DNA of 38,385 nucleotides from Phaeodactylibacter sp. (lineage in GTDB: Bacteria; Bacteroidota; Bacteroidia; Chitinophagales; Saprospiraceae), in assembly GCA_020436535.1 (NCBI GenBank), contig JAGQXQ010000077.1:1-38385 (forward strand). The letters are read 5' to 3'. Position 1 is the first letter of the stretch. Each line of letters begins with the position of its first letter. Shown here piece by piece: positions 27,435-36,852 of this stretch. The notes beneath the pieces are model-generated. The model made no database searches. It had not been told where the DNA came from and was given only the letters and a program-made list of their open reading frames with translations. The position numbers and the translations under genes were made by a program.

Positions 27435-30400
27435 TTAGAATGGATTGATCAGGCCGCGCAGTTCTTTATCAATACCCGCATACACCAATAACTTAAACTC
27501 ACTCCCCGCAATATTCACCGCGTTGGAGAAACCGGTCCGAAGATCAGTTAGCGTATCCCTTCCATCATAAATACGTACAACCCGGTAGGCGTTTTCCTCG
27601 ATGCCCGCTTCTCCCAGTGAAACATGGATAGGTATTGGGCTGCTTTGGCCCAGGTAGAACAAATGGATACCTGCTTCCCCGCTAAAAAGCTCGAATAGGG
27701 AAAAAGTCTCAATATCGATAAGGCCACGGCTCTTATGCACCTTGTGTGGGATGTCCATCAGTTGCAGCAATTCGGCGTATTTGTCCAGCAAAAAACTGGA
27801 TTCCCAGTGGCCCAAGCCGGTAATGTAAGATTCTATTTTCAGGGTCCCTTTCTGAGGCCGTCCTTTCAATACATTCCGAAGTTGTAATTGCAGGAAAGCC
27901 ACATCCAAATAATTGCCGATGAATTCTGTTTTGATGCTATCGAATGGAGTCATTCCAAAGTGGTACGCCTGGCTGATCTCCCGAATACCTTCCTGCTGGA
28001 ATAAACGATCCTTAATGTTTTCGCGGATTCCCTTGGCTGACCAGTCCTTCCGGGGAAACAGGTTGACCGGTTTGAGGCGGAGCGGAATGGCCGGCCCGTA
28101 CTTGTAGTTGCGGTCTCTGAACCCCAGGCTGATGTTGTTGATGGCTTCCCGGGTTTCTTCGACCCGATCCTTAAAATGATAGTATTCCCAGCCCAGTCCG
28201 CTGGAGGGTTTCCCGTCGGCATAGATCAAAGGGCCGGCGTGGGCCTCCATTTTCTCTTCATAAGCCTGTAATTGGCCCCGAATATTTTCCAGGGCGTAAA
28301 GCAATTGGTTGTAAAAGCGTTTTCCCCGGGCCTCATCGGGCAGGTTGGGAAGCCATTCGTCTTCCACGGGCTGCACAAACTGCAGCGGCCGAATTTGGGG
28401 GGTGAGTTGCCCGTTTTGCAGCAACACGTCAAACAAGATGGGGGTGTCGATCTGGGTAGAGATCAATTGCTCGGCCGACAAGGCCGTGAGGTCCCGCTCT
28501 ATCTGCCGTTTCAGGGCCCGGCCGCCCATGCGGGCGTCGAAACCCCGTTTGGCCACCCATGTCAGGGCTTCTCTAGAAATATTCAGGATGGTAGTCCGCC
28601 GGACAAAGCCGTCGCGTTGAAGCAATTCCTTGATCTGCAGGCGCGCTATGCCCAGAATATGGCTGAGTTCCAGGGGGTTGAAAATGATGATCTGGTCAAT
28701 CCTGTTGACGAATTCAGGGCGGAATTCATTTTCTACGGCACGGCGATAGAGGGCGCCCTCGTCATCTGTATCAGATTGGAAACCCAGCCGCGTATTGACC
28801 TGCCGGGCGCCCACGTTGGAGGTCATAATAATGATGGTGTTGGTAAAGTCTACCGTTCTCCCCAGGCTATCGGTCAGGCGGCCGTCATCCAACACTTGCA
28901 GCAGTAAGTCGTGAACTCCGGGATGGGCTTTTTCGATCTCATCCAGCAGAATGATGCCAAAGGGGCGATAACGGACTGTACCGGTAAGTTGCCCTTCCGG
29001 GTTGAAATCATCACCAATGAGGCGTTGGACAGCGCTGCTGTCAATGTATTCATTCATGTCAAAACGCATCAGGTGCTTTTCGTCACCCATCAGATACTTA
29101 CAGATGACTTTGGCGGCCTGCGTTTTACCGACTCCCGTTGGGCCGATAAACAGGAAAGAAGACAGGGGCTTGCTCTTATCCGCCAGCTTTGCCTTGATGA
29201 GATGGATGACGTTCGTAAGGGCTTCGACAGCTTTAGGCTGCCCGACCAGCTCCTGGGCGATATGTCCGCGTACTTCGCCTTCCTGAAATTGCCGGCTGGA
29301 GTCAAAAATGCGTTCTTCCAATCCGCTAAAGGCCTTAAATTCCTCCCGCACTTCAGGAGCATTGGCCGAGCGGTAGCGGTACTTAACCGCCAACTGCCGC
29401 ATTAACTTCATGACACTGCCGGGTAGCGGTTTGTTTTTGAGGTAATTGCGCTGTATTGACAACAATTGCCGGACGGCCTGTATGGTGATCGACGTATCGT
29501 TCTCCCGCTCTAAAGCCCTCCGGTTCTTAAGAACAATGCGAATGGCGGTTTCCAGTTCGGGCTCATTGAGCCGGAAAGCCTGGAATAGGCTGGCAAAACG
29601 CCGCCCCTTTTCCTGAACAATTTTCCATTCTTCCGGAGTGGCCAGAATGGTGGCCTGTAGCTGCCGTTTTTCCAGGTAAGGCCGCAGCACATCACTGAGG
29701 GTCATGCTATTCTGAGCGGATTTGCCAATCCGCAATAGCGCTACTGGATTATCGATCAGGATCTTGTCGCTGGTTTTGGCGTTCTCCGCTGGATTTCTAA
29801 CAAAGGAAATGATGGATTCAAAACGCTTTTGCCACATCCCGACAATACTCATCCCTGAAATGATACGAGTAGGGTCGATCAGCCAGACACGTTGCCCCCG
29901 CCCTTTTTTGGCTTCATAAAATTCACTTTCATAGCGCCAGATAACCTCATGAATGATGGTGTGCTTGCCTACTCCTTCCGGCCCGATGATGGCCAGCGGC
30001 GTGTTGCCGCGGTGGAAAATGGCTTTGTACAACTGGCCAACCAGCTGTTCCTGATAGTAGGCCCGCCGTAGTTCTGCCGGGTAAAGGCTGTTCAGGTCCT
30101 GGCCGACGCGTTCGATCTCTGTCGCTCCGTCAAAATCGGTATCCCCCAGCAGGCTCGTCAAAAACCAGTTATCGGCCGGTGTGTCAAAGCTGAAACCCGC
30201 CTGGCCAATATTGACCGTTACTTCTATGTTGGCCATGAACTCCCGCCGGCTGGCAAAAAAAGCCTCCGGGTCAAATTCGCTTTCGTTCTCTTTTTTGATC
30301 TTGCGCAGTAAGGCTTGAATGGCCTTTTTTGCTCCTCCCTCCAGGTCCGGTTTGCCGCCCTTTTTTTCCGGGAGCATAAACATGTAGTTATAAAAGGAGG

Positions 30401-30737
30401 GCAAGACCAAAAAGGATTTGCCTTCGAGGTTGAAACTAGCCAGCCCGAAAAGGCCGCTAATAAATTGTCTCCCCAGGTTGAACTCCAGTTGAAATTGGTG
30501 ATACTGAACCTCCGGCTTGAACAAGAACCACAAGAGGCGGTCGGCACTTTGCCGGCTCAATGAAAACCCTTTGAAGGCCTGGCGGACTTCTTTCTGGAAA
30601 AGGGCCACCGCGTTGTCGTACCGGCGATGGGTAGCTACCGGGAAACCGGTAAATAGCGGACGAAGGTGGTAATGCACCTTGTCTTCTATATTGGTATCCG
30701 TAACGAGTGTGGGAATTTGAAGTTTTACGATTGCCAT
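27435..30737 (-). CDS. Large Clp/Hsp100-like AAA+ ATPase with degenerate first site
   Basis: A 1100-residue protein starting MAIVKLQIPTLV; an in-frame ATG at 30815 would add 26 residues and is less likely. Residues 1 to about 230 are a novel N-terminal domain without Clp_N repeats. D1 has a Walker A GPEGVGKHT (K258), but its Walker B reads ILIDNP (Glu replaced by Asn) near 327, so hydrolysis there is doubtful. D2 is canonical: GPTGVGKTQ (K538), IILLDEIEKAH (E600), sensor IIMTSNVG and the Clp D2-small region GRALKRQIERDL. About 300 further residues form an unrecognised C-terminal extension. No ClpP-binding loop was identified. Not near T6SS or eCIS genes. Likely a disaggregase or remodelling motor of an undescribed type. 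Confidence 0.9.
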   Translation of the reverse strand: MAIVKLQIPTLVTDTNIEDKVHYHLRPLFTGFPVATHRRYDNAVALFQKEVRQAFKGFSLSRQSADRLLWFLFKPEVQYHQFQLEFNLGRQFISGLFGLASFNLEGKSFLVLPSFYNYMFMLPEKKGGKPDLEGGAKKAIQALLRKIKKENESEFDPEAFFASRREFMANIEVTVNIGQAGFSFDTPADNWFLTSLLGDTDFDGATEIERVGQDLNSLYPAELRRAYYQEQLVGQLYKAIFHRGNTPLAIIGPEGVGKHTIIHEVIWRYESEFYEAKKGRGQRVWLIDPTRIISGMSIVGMWQKRFESIISFVRNPAENAKTSDKILIDNPVALLRIGKSAQNSMTLSDVLRPYLEKRQLQATILATPEEWKIVQEKGRRFASLFQAFRLNEPELETAIRIVLKNRRALERENDTSITIQAVRQLLSIQRNYLKNKPLPGSVMKLMRQLAVKYRYRSANAPEVREEFKAFSGLEERIFDSSRQFQEGEVRGHIAQELVGQPKAVEALTNVIHLIKAKLADKSKPLSSFLFIGPTGVGKTQAAKVICKYLMGDEKHLMRFDMNEYIDSSAVQRLIGDDFNPEGQLTGTVRYRPFGIILLDEIEKAHPGVHDLLLQVLDDGRLTDSLGRTVDFTNTIIIMTSNVGARQVNTRLGFQSDTDDEGALYRRAVENEFRPEFVNRIDQIIIFNPLELSHILGIARLQIKELLQRDGFVRRTTILNISREALTWVAKRGFDARMGGRALKRQIERDLTALSAEQLISTQIDTPILFDVLLQNGQLTPQIRPLQFVQPVEDEWLPNLPDEARGKRFYNQLLYALENIRGQLQAYEEKMEAHAGPLIYADGKPSSGLGWEYYHFKDRVEETREAINNISLGFRDRNYKYGPAIPLRLKPVNLFPRKDWSAKGIRENIKDRLFQQEGIREISQAYHFGMTPFDSIKTEFIGNYLDVAFLQLQLRNVLKGRPQKGTLKIESYITGLGHWESSFLLDKYAELLQLMDIPHKVHKSRGLIDIETFSLFELFSGEAGIHLFYLGQSSPIPIHVSLGEAGIEENAYRVVRIYDGRDTLTDLRTGFSNAVNIAGSEFKLLVYAGIDKELRGLINPF

Positions 30738-30980
30738 CGCCGATTGCTTAAGAGCGAAAGATAACAAACTTCTGACATTACCCCAATTCTTGCTTTGTTT
30801 TGGGCTTCCGTCCATTTTTGACTAACAGTTTACAAAACGATGATTTTTGGTGAAAAACAGGCGATTTGACAACCATTAGGCTAAACCGGATTTTGAAAAC
30901 ACCCTGCTCAAACATAATAAATAACATGCTGTTAGACCTCTGTGAAAAATAATTAATCTCCTTACCCTAAAGCTAAGATT

Positions 30981-33920
30981 ATGAATAAGTTGTACCTGGC
31001 TACGCTAGCCATACTTATGTCTTTCAGCGCCTTTTCCCAGAATGCGCGCGTACAGATTATCCACAACTCTCCGACGCCGGGCACGGACAGTGGCCCGGTT
31101 GTTGACATCTACGTCAACGGCGCGCTCCTGCCTGCTCTGACGGCAGTGCCCTTCCGGGCGGCTACTCCCTTCCTGGACGTGCCGGCAGAAGCCGATATCG
31201 AAGTGGCGGTAGCGGTGAACCCCAGCAATTCTGTCAATGACGCTATCGCTACCTTTCCGCTCGGGCAATTGGCAGACGGCGAAGGGTACACTGTAATTGC
31301 CAACGGCATCGTAGGCGATACCGACACGCCCTTCGGGCTCGCTGTTTTCGCAGGCGCCCTGGAATCTAACCCCGTATCCGGCCGGTCTGACTTTATCGCC
31401 TTCCATGGTTCACCCGGCGCTCCGGCAGTTGACATTGACGCTCGTACAGTGGGCAACCTGATCGAGGGGCTGGAGTACGGTTCCTTTGCGGAGAACTACA
31501 TTTCTGTACCACCCGATGCCTACTTCCTGGATGTCCGGCCCGCCGGCGACCCCGATATCGTCGCCACCTTTGAAGCTGACCTTTCCGGCCTACCTGGGTT
31601 AGCCGGTGGGGTGGCTACGGTTTTTGCTTCGGGTATACTGGGTGGCACGCCGGCCTTCGGCTTGTACGCTGCCCTGATCGACGGTTCTGTTGTCGAATTT
31701 CAGGCTGTTAATGTTGCCCGCTTGCAGGTGATCCATAATTCTCCTTCGCCGACGGTTGACATTTATTTCAACGGAGACCTGGCTTTGGATAATTTTGAAT
31801 TTCGCACTGCCACACCTTTTGATTTCGTTCCGGCGGGCGTTACCATCAACGTAGGCGTGGCACTGGATAACAGTACCTCGGTGGAGGATACCCTGGTGAA
31901 CTTCCCGGTGGTATTCGAAAACGGTAAAGCCTATGTCGTCGTCGCCAATGGCATCGTTGGTGATGCCGATACGCCGTTTACCCTCGAAGCTTTTGCCTCG
32001 GCTCAGGAGCAAGGGCTCAGCCAGGATGCCGTTTCAGTGCTCACCTTCCATGGCGCTCCCGGCGCTCCGGCGGTTGCCGTCAATGATTTTCTGCAAGACC
32101 CGCTCTTCGACGGACTGGAATACGGTGATTTTCTTGGTTATGCAGAGTTGCCGCTGGAAAACTACTTCCTGGAAGTGCGCCCCTCCGGCAGCGACGACCT
32201 GGTGGGGACTTTCAACATTAACCTGGAAAATGCCGGAGGTTTGTCGGTGGTGCTTTTTGCATCCGGGATAGTTGGCGATGAACCGAATTTCGGCTTGTTT
32301 GCCGCCCTGCCCGATGGAGATATTATAGAGCTTACACCGGTAGCCCTCACTCAGATCATCCACAACTCGCCGGCGGCCGGTGCTGAAGTGATCGACCTGT
32401 GGGCTAATAATGTTGTGAAAGTAGTAGAAGATTTAGCTTTCCAGTCCGCAACGGGCCTCGTGTACTATCCGACGCGCGTTCCGCTCACATTCGGAGTTGC
32501 GCCGGCAGATAGCGATGACCCATCCGACATTCTATTCAACCTGCCCGACCCTGTCACCTTTCAGGATGGAAAGTACCACGTTGTCATCGCCAATGGTATC
32601 CCCGGAGATGCCGATACTCCCTTCGAATTGGCCATCAATTCAGAGGCAATTTTATTGGCGCCCAACGCGCAGAGTACAGTCGTTTCGGTATTTCACGGTT
32701 CTCCCAATGCCCCGGCGGTAGACGTCACTGCCCGGGATCTTATGCTGCCCCTCGTGGATGGCCTTGCCTATGGAGAATTTGAATCCCTGGGGGCGCTTCC
32801 GATAAATACGTATTACCTCGAAGTATATCCCGATGGCAGCGAAAGCCTGGTGGCCACCTTTGAATCTCCGATTCCACCTTCATCCGCCGGCATCAGCCTG
32901 GTGGGCGTAGTTTCCGGTTTGCTGAGTGAGGAGCCTCCTTTAGACCTGCTGTTTTTCACCCCCAACGGAGGGGTTATAAAGGCTACACCCGTCTCCCAAG
33001 TACAGGTTATCCATAACTCCCCGGCGCCGACTGTGGATGTTTACGCCAACGAAAATCTGCTCCTGAATGATTTTGAGTTCCGCACCGCCACTCCCTTTGT
33101 CGACCTGCCTACCCGCACGGCATTCGATATCGCAGTGGCGCCGGATAACAGCAGTTCTGTAGCAGACAGTCTCCGTTCGTTCAAAAACATCGTATTTGAA
33201 GATGGCAAGAAATACATTGTCATGGCAACCGGAGTGGTGGGCGATATGGATGCTCCGTTTGGCCTGGCGGTCAATGACATGGGCCGCACCCGCGCCGAAA
33301 GCGGCGAAGGAGTCGACCTGCTCTTGTACCACGGCGCTACGGATGCGCCGGTAGTAGATGTAGTTGCCGCAGGCGTAGGGGTTCTGTTTGATGATGTCGC
33401 ATACGGCGAGTACCAGGGCTATATCAACGTCCCGGCATCTACCTACACGCTGAATGTTACTCCGGGTAATGACAACAGCAATGTCGTTCGCGCCTACGAC
33501 GCCGATATTTCCGGGCTGAATGGTGGCGCCGCCACTGTATTTGCTTCCGGGTTCCTCGGCAGTGAAGAGCCGGAAGATGAGTTTGAGGTATGGGTGGCTT
33601 TGGCTGATGGACAAACGTTTCCGCTCACTGAAATTGTGAGCACTCAGGAGGTGGCGGATAGAATACCCGCTTTCCAAATGGCGCCCAACCCGGTACGCAC
33701 CACTGCCCAGGTGCAGTACACCCTTAGTGAAGACACTGACATCACTATTGCCGTTCAGAATGCCGGCGGGCAAACCATCCGTTCCATTTACCTCGGGCGG
33801 CAGCCGGCAGGGGAGCACAGCCGCACCCTTGAAGCGGGCGGACTGCCGCAGGGAATGTACACCTACAGCCTGATTACTCCGGTTGGAATACTTGCTCAGC
33901 GATTTGTGGTTGTAAAATAG
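30981..33920 (+). CDS. DUF4397-repeat surface protein with T9SS sorting domain
   Basis: A 979-residue secreted protein. The signal peptide is MNKLYLATLAILMSFSAFSQ. Four long tandem units of about 215 residues each start ARVQIIHNSP, ARLQVIHNSPSP, LTQIIHNSP and QVQVIHNSPAP. Each unit splits into two related halves: half A with VDVYxN, FRTATPF and ANGIVGDxDTPF, and half B with FHGxPxAPAVDV and FASGxxxxPxFGL. The protein thus has eight DUF4397-like modules. The last 85 residues are a type A sorting domain (FQMAPNPVRTTAQVQYTL to AQRFVVVK). It would be a secreted or surface-bound rod or adhesin; binding partner unknown. No promoter consensus found upstream. Confidence 0.92.
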   Translation: MNKLYLATLAILMSFSAFSQNARVQIIHNSPTPGTDSGPVVDIYVNGALLPALTAVPFRAATPFLDVPAEADIEVAVAVNPSNSVNDAIATFPLGQLADGEGYTVIANGIVGDTDTPFGLAVFAGALESNPVSGRSDFIAFHGSPGAPAVDIDARTVGNLIEGLEYGSFAENYISVPPDAYFLDVRPAGDPDIVATFEADLSGLPGLAGGVATVFASGILGGTPAFGLYAALIDGSVVEFQAVNVARLQVIHNSPSPTVDIYFNGDLALDNFEFRTATPFDFVPAGVTINVGVALDNSTSVEDTLVNFPVVFENGKAYVVVANGIVGDADTPFTLEAFASAQEQGLSQDAVSVLTFHGAPGAPAVAVNDFLQDPLFDGLEYGDFLGYAELPLENYFLEVRPSGSDDLVGTFNINLENAGGLSVVLFASGIVGDEPNFGLFAALPDGDIIELTPVALTQIIHNSPAAGAEVIDLWANNVVKVVEDLAFQSATGLVYYPTRVPLTFGVAPADSDDPSDILFNLPDPVTFQDGKYHVVIANGIPGDADTPFELAINSEAILLAPNAQSTVVSVFHGSPNAPAVDVTARDLMLPLVDGLAYGEFESLGALPINTYYLEVYPDGSESLVATFESPIPPSSAGISLVGVVSGLLSEEPPLDLLFFTPNGGVIKATPVSQVQVIHNSPAPTVDVYANENLLLNDFEFRTATPFVDLPTRTAFDIAVAPDNSSSVADSLRSFKNIVFEDGKKYIVMATGVVGDMDAPFGLAVNDMGRTRAESGEGVDLLLYHGATDAPVVDVVAAGVGVLFDDVAYGEYQGYINVPASTYTLNVTPGNDNSNVVRAYDADISGLNGGAATVFASGFLGSEEPEDEFEVWVALADGQTFPLTEIVSTQEVADRIPAFQMAPNPVRTTAQVQYTLSEDTDITIAVQNAGGQTIRSIYLGRQPAGEHSRTLEAGGLPQGMYTYSLITPVGILAQRFVVVK
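31041..33640 (+). repeat. Four in-frame DUF4397 repeat units
   Basis: Four direct repeat units of about 650 bp in the coding sequence, starting near 31041, 31711, 32341 and 32991. They are protein-level repeats, clearly diverged at DNA level, so the array is not a recent duplication. Each unit carries two half-modules. Confidence 0.8.
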
Positions 33921-34191: not shown

Positions 34192-36852
34192 ATGAAAAAA
34201 GGATCAGACGGAATGGCCGAAGAATACCTCCACCCGGAATATAAAAAATTCAAGTTCCGAGAACTGAAGGTCTACGCATCTACGGAATGGCTGGCGGACA
34301 ACAAGAAGAAGTATCGCCAGGTATTCGATCGTTATGAAACGACCTATGTCTACGCCGAACTCTCCTTTTACAACAAGCTTTTTGATGTAGAAGACTGGGA
34401 AGTGGAGGTGGAACTGAAGTGTTATTTGCTGAAGAAATCTCAGAAGCTGCTCTGCTCGTTGCCCTTTCGGCGCAAAGTGAGTAAGTACGATCACATCATG
34501 TACATTCGCGAAGGCTGGGGCAACAAAAATGAGGGTGCTTTCTGGAAAAAAGGGACATACTACTGGGAAGCCTGGGTGGAAGGAGAGAAGGTGGCCACCA
34601 AGTATTTCTACGTAGAAGACGCCGGCCAGGAAATGCTGCCGGGAGAAAACCCCTATTTGGAAGTGCAGGCACTGAAGCTGTACGAAGGGCCCTACGATGA
34701 TGTCATTGAAGATGAACGCATCTACTACAAAGCATTCAGCAGCGAAGAAACCCGATACATTTACGTAGAGATCTCCATGCGCAACCAGCATACGGACAAG
34801 GCCTGGCATTGCGAGCTGTTTACCAAATTTTACAATGATGCCCGGGAGCTGAAAGGGCAGGTTGTCCGCCTGCAACGCATCGATAAAAGAGATGAGGTCA
34901 TCCGGGTTACGGCCGGCTGGGGCTCCAATGTGAAGGGTTCCTGGCGGAAGGACCGGTATACGGCAGAGGTCGTTTTTATGGATAAGCTGTTGGCAGTGGT
35001 GCCTTTTGAGGTGACTGAGGAATTTGAGCAAGGGGTGGCCGGGGTTTTACTGCCCAGCCGGCATTCGCCGGTAATCCTTTCTCCTGATGAGAGTTTCAAC
35101 CAGACCTTCGATGAGGTGATGATTCGCCTCGATGCCCTGATCGGGCTGGACGCCATCAAAACGCAGGTACTCGACCACGCCAAGTACATACAATTCCTTC
35201 AGCTCCGAAAGGATAAAGGCTTTCGCGAAAAAGAAGAGATCAACGTCCACTCTGTTTTCATCGGCAATCCGGGAACGGGCAAGACGACCGTGGCCAAAAT
35301 GATGGGGCTATTATATAAAAAAATGGGGCTGCTCACCAAAGGCCATGTGCACGAGGTGGACCGCGTAGACCTGGTGGGGGAATACATCGGCCAAACGGCG
35401 CCAAAAGTCAAAGAGGCCATCGAAAAGGCCAGAGGCGGGGTGTTGTTTATCGATGAGGCCTACGCGCTGGCGCGTTCCAATGACGACAGTAAAGATTTTG
35501 GACGCGAGGTGATCGAGATATTGGTCAAGGAAATGTCGAATGGCCCGGGCGACCTGGCGGTGATTGTCGCCGGCTATCCCAAGGAAATGAAACATTTCCT
35601 GGATTCCAACCCGGGCTTGAAGTCCCGCTTCAAATTATATTTTGAATTTTCCGATTACCTGCCGCAGGAATTGTCGCAGATCGCCGGCTATGCCTGCCGG
35701 GAAAAGGGCGTGGTGCTGACCGAAAAGGCCAAGGAAAAGATAGACGAGATCATCATTACTGCCTTCCGTAAACGCGACCGTTCCTTTGGCAACGCCCGTT
35801 TTGTCTATGACCTCATTGAGAAATCAAAGGTCAACCTGGGATTGCGTATTATGTCTGAAGAAGACCCCAAAGGGGTGGACAAGGAAAAGCTTTCCCTGGT
35901 CCGCCTGGGAGATGTGGAAAAGATCGACGTCGAAGCCAAGCCGGAACTGCCCAATATTCCGGTGGACGAACCGTTGCTGAAGGAATCCCTCGACCAGTTG
36001 TACAGGCTGATAGGTATGGAAAATATCAAGGCGCAGATCAGCGAGCTGGTCCGCCTGGTCCGCTTTTACCGGGAGACCAACCGCGATGTATTAAACAGCT
36101 TTTTCCTCCATACGGTCTTTATCGGCAACCCCGGCACAGGAAAAACCACGGTGGCCCGCATCCTCACTCAGATTTACAAATCTCTGGGAGTTTTGGAGCG
36201 AGGGCACATGGTGGAAACGGACCGGCAGGGGCTGGTCGCCGGCCATGTCGGCCAAACCGCGATCAAAACCGCCGAGCGCATCGATGAATCGATGGGCGGC
36301 GTCCTGTTCATAGATGAGGCCTACTCTCTGACCATGCGTTCCAGCGCCGGCGGGGATTTTGGGGACGAGTCCATTCAGACCCTCCTCAAACGAATGGAAG
36401 ACCACCGCGGAAAATTCTTCGTCTTTGTCGCCGGCTATCCCGATAATATGGAAGCCTTTCTCAAAGCCAACCCGGGCTTGAATTCCCGCTTTGATAAAAT
36501 CCTCAAGTTCGAAGATTATTCTCCCAAAGAACTCAACCGAATTGCCCTGCAGATGCTGTCAAAAGAGGGAGTCGTGCCGACACCCGAGGCCGAAGAACAC
36601 ATCGTGGAGTATCTGGCCTTCCTCTATGAGTACCGCGATAAATATTTCGGTAACGCCCGCACCGTTCGCAACATCGTCAATGAGGCCATCAAAAACCACA
36701 ACCTGCGCCTGGCAGCCCTCTCTTTGGAAGAGCGGGCCAACACACCGGCCAACGTGCTGACCCTGGAAGACGTAGAGTCCTTTAAGACGGACAAGAGTAC
36801 CTTCGTCTTCAGCAAAAAGTCCATTGGTTTCCGCCGCCGGGCGACGGAGTAA
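34192..36852 (+). CDS. Double CbbX-type AAA+ ATPase with duplicated beta-rich N-terminus
   Basis: An 886-residue soluble protein. Residues about 15-145 and 155-275 are two related beta-rich modules (both with WG-N and WRK/WKKG turns and a final conserved FYV or PFEV strand), of no family I recognise. Two CbbX/CfxQ AAA+ domains follow. AAA1 has Walker A GNPGTGKTT (K364) and Walker B GVLFIDEAYAL. AAA2 has GNPGTGKTT (K651) and GVLFIDEAYSL. Each has the family pore/sensor segments (RSFGNARFVYDLIE or KYFGNARTVRNIV near the end of its domain). Both sites look intact. CbbX remodels Rubisco in autotrophs; no Rubisco gene is here, so the client is different. The start codon is the first in frame (34192); a second ATG is seven codons later. 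Confidence 0.92.
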   Translation: MKKGSDGMAEEYLHPEYKKFKFRELKVYASTEWLADNKKKYRQVFDRYETTYVYAELSFYNKLFDVEDWEVEVELKCYLLKKSQKLLCSLPFRRKVSKYDHIMYIREGWGNKNEGAFWKKGTYYWEAWVEGEKVATKYFYVEDAGQEMLPGENPYLEVQALKLYEGPYDDVIEDERIYYKAFSSEETRYIYVEISMRNQHTDKAWHCELFTKFYNDARELKGQVVRLQRIDKRDEVIRVTAGWGSNVKGSWRKDRYTAEVVFMDKLLAVVPFEVTEEFEQGVAGVLLPSRHSPVILSPDESFNQTFDEVMIRLDALIGLDAIKTQVLDHAKYIQFLQLRKDKGFREKEEINVHSVFIGNPGTGKTTVAKMMGLLYKKMGLLTKGHVHEVDRVDLVGEYIGQTAPKVKEAIEKARGGVLFIDEAYALARSNDDSKDFGREVIEILVKEMSNGPGDLAVIVAGYPKEMKHFLDSNPGLKSRFKLYFEFSDYLPQELSQIAGYACREKGVVLTEKAKEKIDEIIITAFRKRDRSFGNARFVYDLIEKSKVNLGLRIMSEEDPKGVDKEKLSLVRLGDVEKIDVEAKPELPNIPVDEPLLKESLDQLYRLIGMENIKAQISELVRLVRFYRETNRDVLNSFFLHTVFIGNPGTGKTTVARILTQIYKSLGVLERGHMVETDRQGLVAGHVGQTAIKTAERIDESMGGVLFIDEAYSLTMRSSAGGDFGDESIQTLLKRMEDHRGKFFVFVAGYPDNMEAFLKANPGLNSRFDKILKFEDYSPKELNRIALQMLSKEGVVPTPEAEEHIVEYLAFLYEYRDKYFGNARTVRNIVNEAIKNHNLRLAALSLEERANTPANVLTLEDVESFKTDKSTFVFSKKSIGFRRRATE

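Follow-up and report, generated by a model that had tools for sequence, protein, structure and literature searches.

The window analysed here, a stretch of 38,385 nucleotides from Phaeodactylibacter sp. (contig JAGQXQ010000077.1), encodes on its minus strand a large Hsp100-like protein that we call subunit B, one of three paralogues named A (about 1085 amino acids), B (1126) and C (about 760). The B reading frame is uninterrupted (Table 1). An earlier note on this DNA had let the gene begin at position 30737, which is not the end of the open reading frame but an internal ATG at residue 27; most orthologues begin there, and it is probably the true start. Orthologues of B are 29-85% identical to the window's protein over nearly the full length, and 41 of the 60 B references available from GTDB loci were aligned with it. 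In a comparison with a close orthologue, synonymous sites are nearly saturated and dN lies at 0.06-0.13 in each module; the gene is therefore under constraint.

Two tandem AAA+ modules form the core of the protein: Pfam recognises AAA_2 at residues 549-709 and ClpB_D2-small at 715-790, and the preceding D1 can be aligned to that of ClpB. When the whole AF2 model was searched with Foldseek, Clp chains filled all 50 best rows and the D1-D2 fold was that of ClpC and ClpB structures, a result that says nothing about the N-terminal domain because all of these rows are Clp chains. The two-AAA architecture and the motif losses described below thus bear out the earlier view of an Hsp100-like motor whose D1 is degenerate. 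No described Clp subfamily fits B, since its NCBIfam scores stay far below the curated cut-offs for ClpA (302 against 993 bits), ClpB (321 against 1232), ClpV (TssH; 235 against 885), ClpK (240 against 1900) and ClpG (237 against 1900).

The N-terminal part of B, some 220 residues, had been said to match no known Clp accessory domain, and Pfam and NCBIfam agree, with no match to Clp_N. The AF2 model of this region is alpha/beta (pLDDT mostly 80-90), and neither Pfam nor this model shows a ClpN-type helical N domain. Searches against Pfam and PDB sequences returned no useful match and gave no support to a HicB-like domain, a resemblance first seen by eye. Compared among the paralogues by hhalign, the N-terminal domains of A and C match with 84% probability, those of A and B with 23% and those of B and C with 5%.

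Table 1. Features of the subunit B gene in the window.
Feature	Position	Strand	Basis
Whole subunit B ORF, 1126 aa	27435..30815	-	Intact ORF; translation probably begins at ATG 30737 (residue 27)
N-terminal domain (residues ~27-245) of alpha/beta type and no known family; A and C have positional equivalents	30081..30737	-	AF2
D1 Walker A GPEGVGKH, His replacing Thr/Ser	29961..29984	-	Motif tally
D1 pore-loop position, GMSIVGMW instead of GAKYQGEF	29832..29855	-	Alignment, motif tally
D1 Walker B ILIDNP, Asn at catalytic Glu position	29745..29762	-	Alignment, motif tally
D1 Arg-finger position RRFASLFQ vs KALERRFQ, arginines gone	29580..29603	-	Alignment
D2 Walker A GPTGVGKT, intact	29121..29144	-	Pfam, motif tally
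D2 pore-loop region RLIGDDFNPEGQLT, without GYVG and shorter than ClpB by 5 residues	28983..29024	-	Alignment, motif tally
D2 Walker B LLDEIEKAH, intact	28923..28949	-	Alignment, motif tally
xGF tripeptide RLGFQ	28776..28790	-	xG[FYL] pattern tally
D2 Arg finger PEFVNRID, intact	28695..28718	-	Alignment, motif tally
Class-I release-factor-like module, domains 1, 2, 4; GGQ domain 3 missing	27438..28451	-	AF2, VIA, Foldseek
RF-core signature EAGIHLF (RF: E-x-GVHR)	27657..27677	-	Tail alignment
RF domain-4 signature VVRIYDGRDTLTDLRTG (RF of same genus: IRSYVLDDRRVKDHRT)	27531..27581	-	Tail alignment

Motifs of the two ATPase rings

The asparagine that the earlier note had seen at the catalytic glutamate position of the D1 Walker B motif is nearly invariant, being present in the window's B (ILIDN) and in 73 of 74 B proteins altogether. 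Its statement that D1 keeps Walker A stands for the lysine position (K in 63 and R in 11 of these 74 proteins) but not for the following Thr/Ser, which is His in 49 of 74, the window's B included. The arginines of the D1 Arg finger are missing from B as well (SLFQ compared with ERRFQ of ClpB). As judged from these motifs, a D1 devoid of catalytic residues is common to A, B and C; the tallies omit 3 A, 1 B and 9 C proteins missed by the spacer patterns. The D1 loop of subunit C often retains KYLGEW, and some polypeptide threading is possible for this reason.

D2 had been called canonical, which holds for Walker A, Walker B, sensor 1 and the Arg finger but not for the pore loop, where the segment that bears the GYVG tyrosine in ClpB and ClpC has been deleted. 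Neither G[Y/W]VG nor GYIG was found in D2 of any of 77 B, 26 A and 23 C proteins, while ordinary ClpB and ClpC proteins of related genomes retain the GYVG loop. By their sequence motifs, A, B and C alike thus have an intact D2 ATPase without the loop that grips substrates.

The C-terminal tail and class-I release factors

The last 300 residues had been taken for a new domain, which did not hold up: in the modelled structure (pLDDT 85.6, pTM 0.85), the tail of B is a class-I release-factor-like module from which the GGQ domain is missing. Aligned by VIA to E. coli RF2 (1gqe), the model reached Z 12.4 over 233 residues at 4.4 A and 14% identity, and this alignment (tail model 40-331, RF2 4-365) takes in the coiled-coil domain 1. 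The best 41 rows were all RF1, RF2 or mitochondrial release factors with Z of at least 9.5, followed by a first unrelated row at 7.3; PrfH scored 7.0. Foldseek likewise placed release factors on all of ranks 1-13.

Profile comparison is far less clear-cut. The score against release factors was 39.1 for the B tail and 40.8 for the A tail, compared with at most 21.5 for column-permuted tails (40 per tail), and 35 unrelated families scored at most 22.2 against the B tail, 26.2 against the A tail and 33.0 against the release-factor profile. Because the reversed B tail reached 28.8 and one unrelated family reached the 33.0 against the release-factor profile, this comparison is unconvincing on its own, and it is the structure that persuades. 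With part of the sets (69 B and 13 A), hhalign gave release factors a probability of 10-11%; with fuller sets, for which the alignments were rebuilt separately, it gave 48% for B and 58% for A. No release factor was matched when the B and A tails were searched against PDB sequences with hmmsearch. Pfam PCRF did not match the tail of the window's B and matched 2 of 38 B tails weakly (best E 0.011) and 1 of 24 A tails (E 0.083), the latter set comprising 24 of the 26 A proteins. Briefly, the tail alignment was built from 40 references and the cut tail of the window's B, of which 3 were lost to the motif pattern to leave 38 rows; a further set has 30 rows. The same genome also carries two ordinary release-factor genes with a PCRF domain.

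Residue spacing locates the missing part. The distance from E-x-G to R is 129 residues in 8 release factors measured and 32-41 in six B tails, so that a stretch of some 95 residues, matching the GGQ domain in size, is absent at the position of domain 3. The GGQ motif was found in none of 77 B tails, and its letters occur in 2 of 26 A tails but at the E-x-G site; the tripeptide that reads stop codons was scanned for as SPF, a form absent from all 77 B and 26 A tails. C has no release-factor-like tail. A, like B, probably ends in one, as suggested by the profile comparison and its pattern of invariant residues.

With the SPF loop gone, the release-factor fold may have acquired a new use. The tails could now be no more than a scaffold, or an arm that binds partners, in a chaperone-like remodeller that has nothing to do with ribosomes. 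The loss of the GGQ domain, a shortened loop after E-x-GxH, the low identity to RF2 and the scarcity of PCRF matches would all suit such a role. However, the most invariant positions of the B tails are the release-factor signatures E-x-G and R..D-x-R, A tails retain the E..G..R..D pattern, and the similarity to RF2 extends into domain 1; we therefore regard this exaptation as rather unlikely.

Inheritance and neighbours of the three genes

The A, B and C genes are inherited as a set. B is present in 36 of 100 genomes of the same family (Saprospiraceae) and accompanied by A and C in all 36, with A seen only as contig-edge fragments in two of them (G000 and G008); one further family genome has a divergent A and C and no B. 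The absence of A from B-negative genomes was read from two match lists obtained with queries other than A, one cut at about E 5e-64 and one with a limit of 1e-80. Outside the family, all 5 B-positive genomes found carry the three genes, in 3 cases in tandem as A-B-C. In a tree of 58 rows that samples each of the paralogues, each has a clade to itself, and the inner order of the three clades is similar. Before the sets were built, length limits removed 5 B and 3 A proteins (contig-edge or split genes); A and B of one locus with scores below the limit were assigned by hand, and A and C of one GC-rich locus were taken from separate searches. This co-inherited trio was not visible to the author of the earlier note, who had a single sequence.

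In genomes of the window's family, A, B and C are not adjacent but dispersed among housekeeping genes, and their neighbourhood therefore lends no support to a role in translation. A functional link was considered for the SpoVK-like two-AAA protein encoded nearby (window 34192-36852), which is found near B at 29 of the 79 non-redundant loci of B, a set with many short members, and rejected: the protein is present in 93 of 100 family genomes, most of them without B, and its adjacency is thus chromosomal synteny. Other recurring neighbours, named by eye, look like a HAD phosphatase, a prenyltransferase, Maf, a ferredoxin, shikimate kinase, a subtilase and similar proteins, which share no common theme, and neither do the neighbours scanned outside the family.

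A defence system, anti-phage or abortive-infection, that senses or stalls ribosomes might be suspected from the patchy distribution of the trio across phyla and from some Hsp100-like proteins in PADLOC candidate systems, which match D2 only. Within the family, though, the genes occupy recurrent chromosomal sites beside housekeeping genes and not islands, and a viral-contig scan with the B tail found no relative, which makes a defence role quite improbable to us. Among matching records, none of 152 from phages and none of 2282 from plasmids covered 80% of B. Jumbo-phage ClpA-like proteins (phrog_4871, 503 bits) were discarded as relatives after the three sampled scored higher against ClpB than against A, B or C and grouped with Clp in the tree.

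As the earlier note had observed, there is no secretion or phage-tail gene near B, with none among ten neighbours scanned. A ClpV-like ATPase recycling a contractile-injection or secretion system could nevertheless explain why the sheath family PF04984 (phage/eCIS) is found more often in B-positive genomes (18 of 36) than in other family genomes (8 of 64). With the comparison restricted to genomes of 5 Mb or more, the figures are 16 of 32 and 4 of 14 (p 0.21), so that genome size may explain the excess, and we rejected a secretion or eCIS link as the main explanation on this ground. Given also that half of the B-positive genomes have no sheath match, that no sheath or tail genes are among the identified neighbours and that the TssH score is so low, we consider a ClpV-like function very improbable.

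In D2, the RLGFQ site of B lies at what we take to be the position of the ClpP-docking loop in ClpA and ClpC, and most of the proteins retain a tripeptide of the xG[FYL] type (hydrophobic-G-aromatic/hydrophobic): 65 of 77 for B, 19 of 25 for A and 19 of 23 for C. The trio could accordingly be imagined as an unfoldase that docks ClpP through this tripeptide and recruits specialised substrates with its release-factor-like arms. In favour of this, 8 of the 36 B-positive family genomes and 0 of the 64 others encode an additional ClpP that falls into a score class of its own, a count confounded by larger genome size. Most trio genomes, however, have one ordinary ClpP, two B-positive ones (G005 and G022) have none at the threshold used, and the D2 GYVG loop is missing from all 126 proteins; such a partnership seems improbable.

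A candidate ribosome-docking ring compared with known systems

The reading that we tentatively favour, at a little less than an even chance, is a heteromeric Hsp100-derived ATPase of A, B and C with a dead D1, an active D2 and release-factor-like arms that dock on the ribosome. We infer the assembly of the trio and its binding to ribosomes, the former from co-inheritance: A, B and C would form a mixed hexamer whose D1 ring serves assembly while ATP is hydrolysed by D2, the arrangement of Pex1/Pex6. The arms, on the face of D2, might bring this hexamer to the ribosome, with the probable docking place at or next to the A site or the factor-binding region; they would be unable to release the peptide and probably unable to read stop codons. 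ATP-driven motion could then displace or remodel some target there, be it a complex that has stalled, a factor bound to the ribosome or its subunits, presumably with no threading of polypeptides in the usual Clp manner. The full picture of a previously undescribed ribosome-acting AAA+ ring that uses GGQ-less release factors as docking arms and spends ATP on clearing or remodelling ribosomes, releasing no peptide and threading none in the usual way, is possible, though we would give it well below an even chance.

Hsp100 motors and release factors have each been thoroughly studied, but neither a fusion of the two nor the trio is described in the literature searched, which included passages of PMC7159879 and PMC9265785 and covered subscription journals thinly. 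If the arms do bind ribosomes, a release-factor fold would bring an AAA+ machine to the bacterial translation apparatus, and the question would arise why these bacteria with their large genomes need it. The trio also amounts to nature's own test of how an Hsp100 ring can work when D1 is dead and D2 lacks the pore-loop tyrosine.

Like ClpA, ClpB and ClpC (Hsp100 class I), B has two tandem AAA+ modules, with AAA_2 in D2 and ClpB D2-small; unlike them, it lacks the D1 Walker B glutamate, the D1 Arg finger, the D2 GYVG loop and ClpN, has a release-factor-like tail and is one of three co-occurring paralogues. ClpV/TssH shares the two-AAA Hsp100 architecture, but B falls far short of its NCBIfam cut-off and has no identified secretion-system neighbours. 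With RF1/RF2 and PrfH, the tail shares the fold of domains 1, 2 and 4 and the E-x-G and R..D-x-R signatures, whereas it has neither GGQ domain nor SPF loop and is joined to an AAA+ motor; an unusual class-I release factor is the subject of PMC1586002. In yeast Pex1, the D1 Walker B reads LIVLDN, and D1 is inactive and D2 catalytic in Pex1/Pex6 (PMC9265785). Pex D2 retains aromatic pore loops that the D2 of the trio lacks, and the trio differs further in its release-factor-like module and in having three subunits, presumably in a heteromer, instead of two; yet like Pex1/Pex6, B combines by its motifs an inactive D1 with an active D2 and belongs to a set of distinct paralogous subunits.

Motor rings of protein B

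The gene under study, B (see table), lies in a fragmented genome of 6.75 Mb in 702 contigs, and its nearest public loci belong to Phaeodactylibacter MAGs with 82-85% protein identity. An earlier note had started the protein at 30737, which is residue 27 and the position where most orthologues start, though the open reading frame itself extends further. B is a constrained gene, since dN against one orthologue is 0.06-0.13 per module with synonymous sites near saturation. Pfam gives good matches to the D2 ATPase only (AAA_2, ClpB_D2-small), and every NCBIfam Clp equivalogue cut-off is far above the scores of B.

Features referred to in the text, with coordinates
Feature	Location	Strand	Length	Remarks
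B open reading frame	window 27435-30815	minus	1126 aa	
Secreted-looking protein	window 30981-33920	+	979 aa	eight DUF4397 matches, weak Por secretion tail
Two-AAA SpoVK/CbbX-like protein	window 34192-36852	+	886 aa	AAA plus AAA_lid_6
Divergent A of genome G096	L224:5354-8539			
Second ClpP of the window's genome (G000)	C106:89-622			

Motifs of the first and second AAA+ modules (D1 and D2) were read by aligning B to the ClpB and ClpC proteins that related genomes encode. In D1, 73 of 74 B proteins carry Asn where the Walker B glutamate would be, the Arg-finger arginines are gone, and the T/S position of Walker A is His in 49 of the 74; the D1 loop reads GMSIVGMW without the aromatic KYxG, while that of C is often still KYLGEW. 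In D2, Walker A, Walker B, sensor 1 and the Arg finger are all present, but the stretch that would carry the pore-loop tyrosine of GYVG lacks five residues relative to ClpB/ClpC, and no G[Y/W]VG motif was found in 77 B, 26 A and 23 C proteins, whereas ordinary Clp proteins of related genomes retain this loop. The previous description of D2 as canonical is therefore only half right, holding for catalysis and failing for substrate grip.

Release-factor fold of the B tail and its probable counterpart in A

The AlphaFold2 model of the B tail alone (pLDDT 85.6, pTM 0.85) settles its predicted fold as that of class-I peptide-chain release factors (RFs). With this model, Foldseek ranks 1-13 were RF chains, and VIA-align aligned 233 residues to E. 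coli RF2 (Z 12.4, 4.4 Å, 14% identity); its rows 1-41 contained nothing but RF1, RF2 and mitochondrial RFs, and unrelated proteins began at Z 7.3. Pfam PCRF matched 2 of 38 B tails weakly (best E 0.011). The alignment of these 38 tails has invariant positions in E-x-G and R..D-x-R, which we take to be RF signatures and which a motif pattern detected together in 34. They are 129 residues apart in eight RFs measured and 32-41 apart in six B tails; the roughly 95 absent residues are the GGQ domain. GGQ occurs in none of the B tails (the same letters in two A tails are located at the E-x-G site), and SPF in no A or B tail. Lacking both, the RF-like module is unable to release peptides and in all probability also to read stop codons. 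The window's genome also holds two ordinary RF genes with strong PCRF matches, so the trio is no replacement for them.

Profile comparison with RFs scored 40.8 for the A tail and 39.1 for the B tail; 35 unrelated families reached at most 26.2 and 22.2 against these tails, respectively, and their maximum against the RF profile was 33.0; tails with permuted columns reached at most 21.5. The A tail has an invariant E..R..D pattern in agreement with this assignment and, judged by its sequence profile, is probably RF-like.

Distribution and genomic setting of the trio

Families A, B and C were defined by three tandem Hsp100 genes of Candidatus Uabimicrobium amorphum (locus L097) and an unclassified bacterium (L101); median lengths are 1085, 1098 and 758 aa, and C has no tail. 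B occurs in 36 of 100 Saprospiraceae genomes; C occurs in these 36 and in G096, as does A among the matches listed (contig-edge fragments in G000 and G008). Searches with the B-tail profile were positive in 1/198 genomes sampled from the window's phylum, namely its own, 4/246 from the phylum of L097 and 1/149 from that of L101. All five positive genomes outside the family encode A, B and C, three as tandem genes in the order A-B-C (G298, G299, G380), and constitute separate evidence, while the 36 family genomes are mutually non-independent. A tree built from 58 motor domains places each of the three families in one clade of its own (A 98/90, B 100/100, C 100/100). Within all three, L101 groups with G380, and L097 pairs with G406 adjoining Saprospiraceae; G370 joins L101/G380 in the B and C clades and is basal in A. 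This similar inner grouping indicates that the trio was inherited or transferred largely together.

Genome G096 encodes a very divergent A (branch 2.18) adjoining a SpoVK-like gene, a frequent site of B, as well as a divergent C (loci L224, L139); B was not found there, and this is possibly a decaying or rewired system. Locus L217 (contig C100 of G380) holds an 1136-aa frame of Hsp100-like type that lacks GYVG and falls outside all three families in the tree, a possible fourth family.

In same-family genomes, A, B and C are dispersed and have housekeeping genes around them. The SpoVK/CbbX-like gene is present in 93 of the 100, divergently placed near B in many, and its near-universality makes this recurrence synteny. 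Neighbours of B grouped with the DUF4397 protein range from 553 to 1778 aa. Carriers of B have larger genomes (median 6.4 Mb vs 3.95 Mb), which confounds associations of B with features such as a second ClpP or contractile sheaths. On contigs C142, C212, C457, C221 and C211, the genome of the window has six matches resembling phage/eCIS sheaths, suggesting several contractile injection systems. A second, lower-scoring ClpP paralogue, found in 8/36 B-positive vs 0/64 other genomes, could be a trio partner or merely large-genome baggage. ClpP had no match at E 1e-30 in B-positive G005 and G022 (reported 96% and 92% complete), which may reflect assembly gaps. Readings of the trio as a ClpP partner, in secretion or in defence all rank below both the ribosome-directed mechanism and the exaptation of its arms considered next.

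A putative ribosome-directed machine

B belongs to a three-gene set and joins a noncatalytic D1 and a catalytically complete D2 without GYVG to an RF-like tail devoid of GGQ. By analogy with Pex1/Pex6, A, B and C may assemble into a mixed hexamer whose RF arms, on the D2 face, would anchor the ring at the ribosome, where ATP hydrolysis would remodel or clear a ribosomal complex. Taken jointly, these steps form a tentative proposal that falls somewhat short of probable; that the RF-like arms were instead exapted seems rather unlikely. If the ribosome step is true, the trio would be a new machine. Its parts are each already known, and their combination was not found in the literature searched, which covered few subscription papers. 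In Pex1/Pex6, D1 is inactive as in B, and the Walker B of yeast Pex1 D1 ends in DN (PMC9265785), an ending shared with D1 of B.
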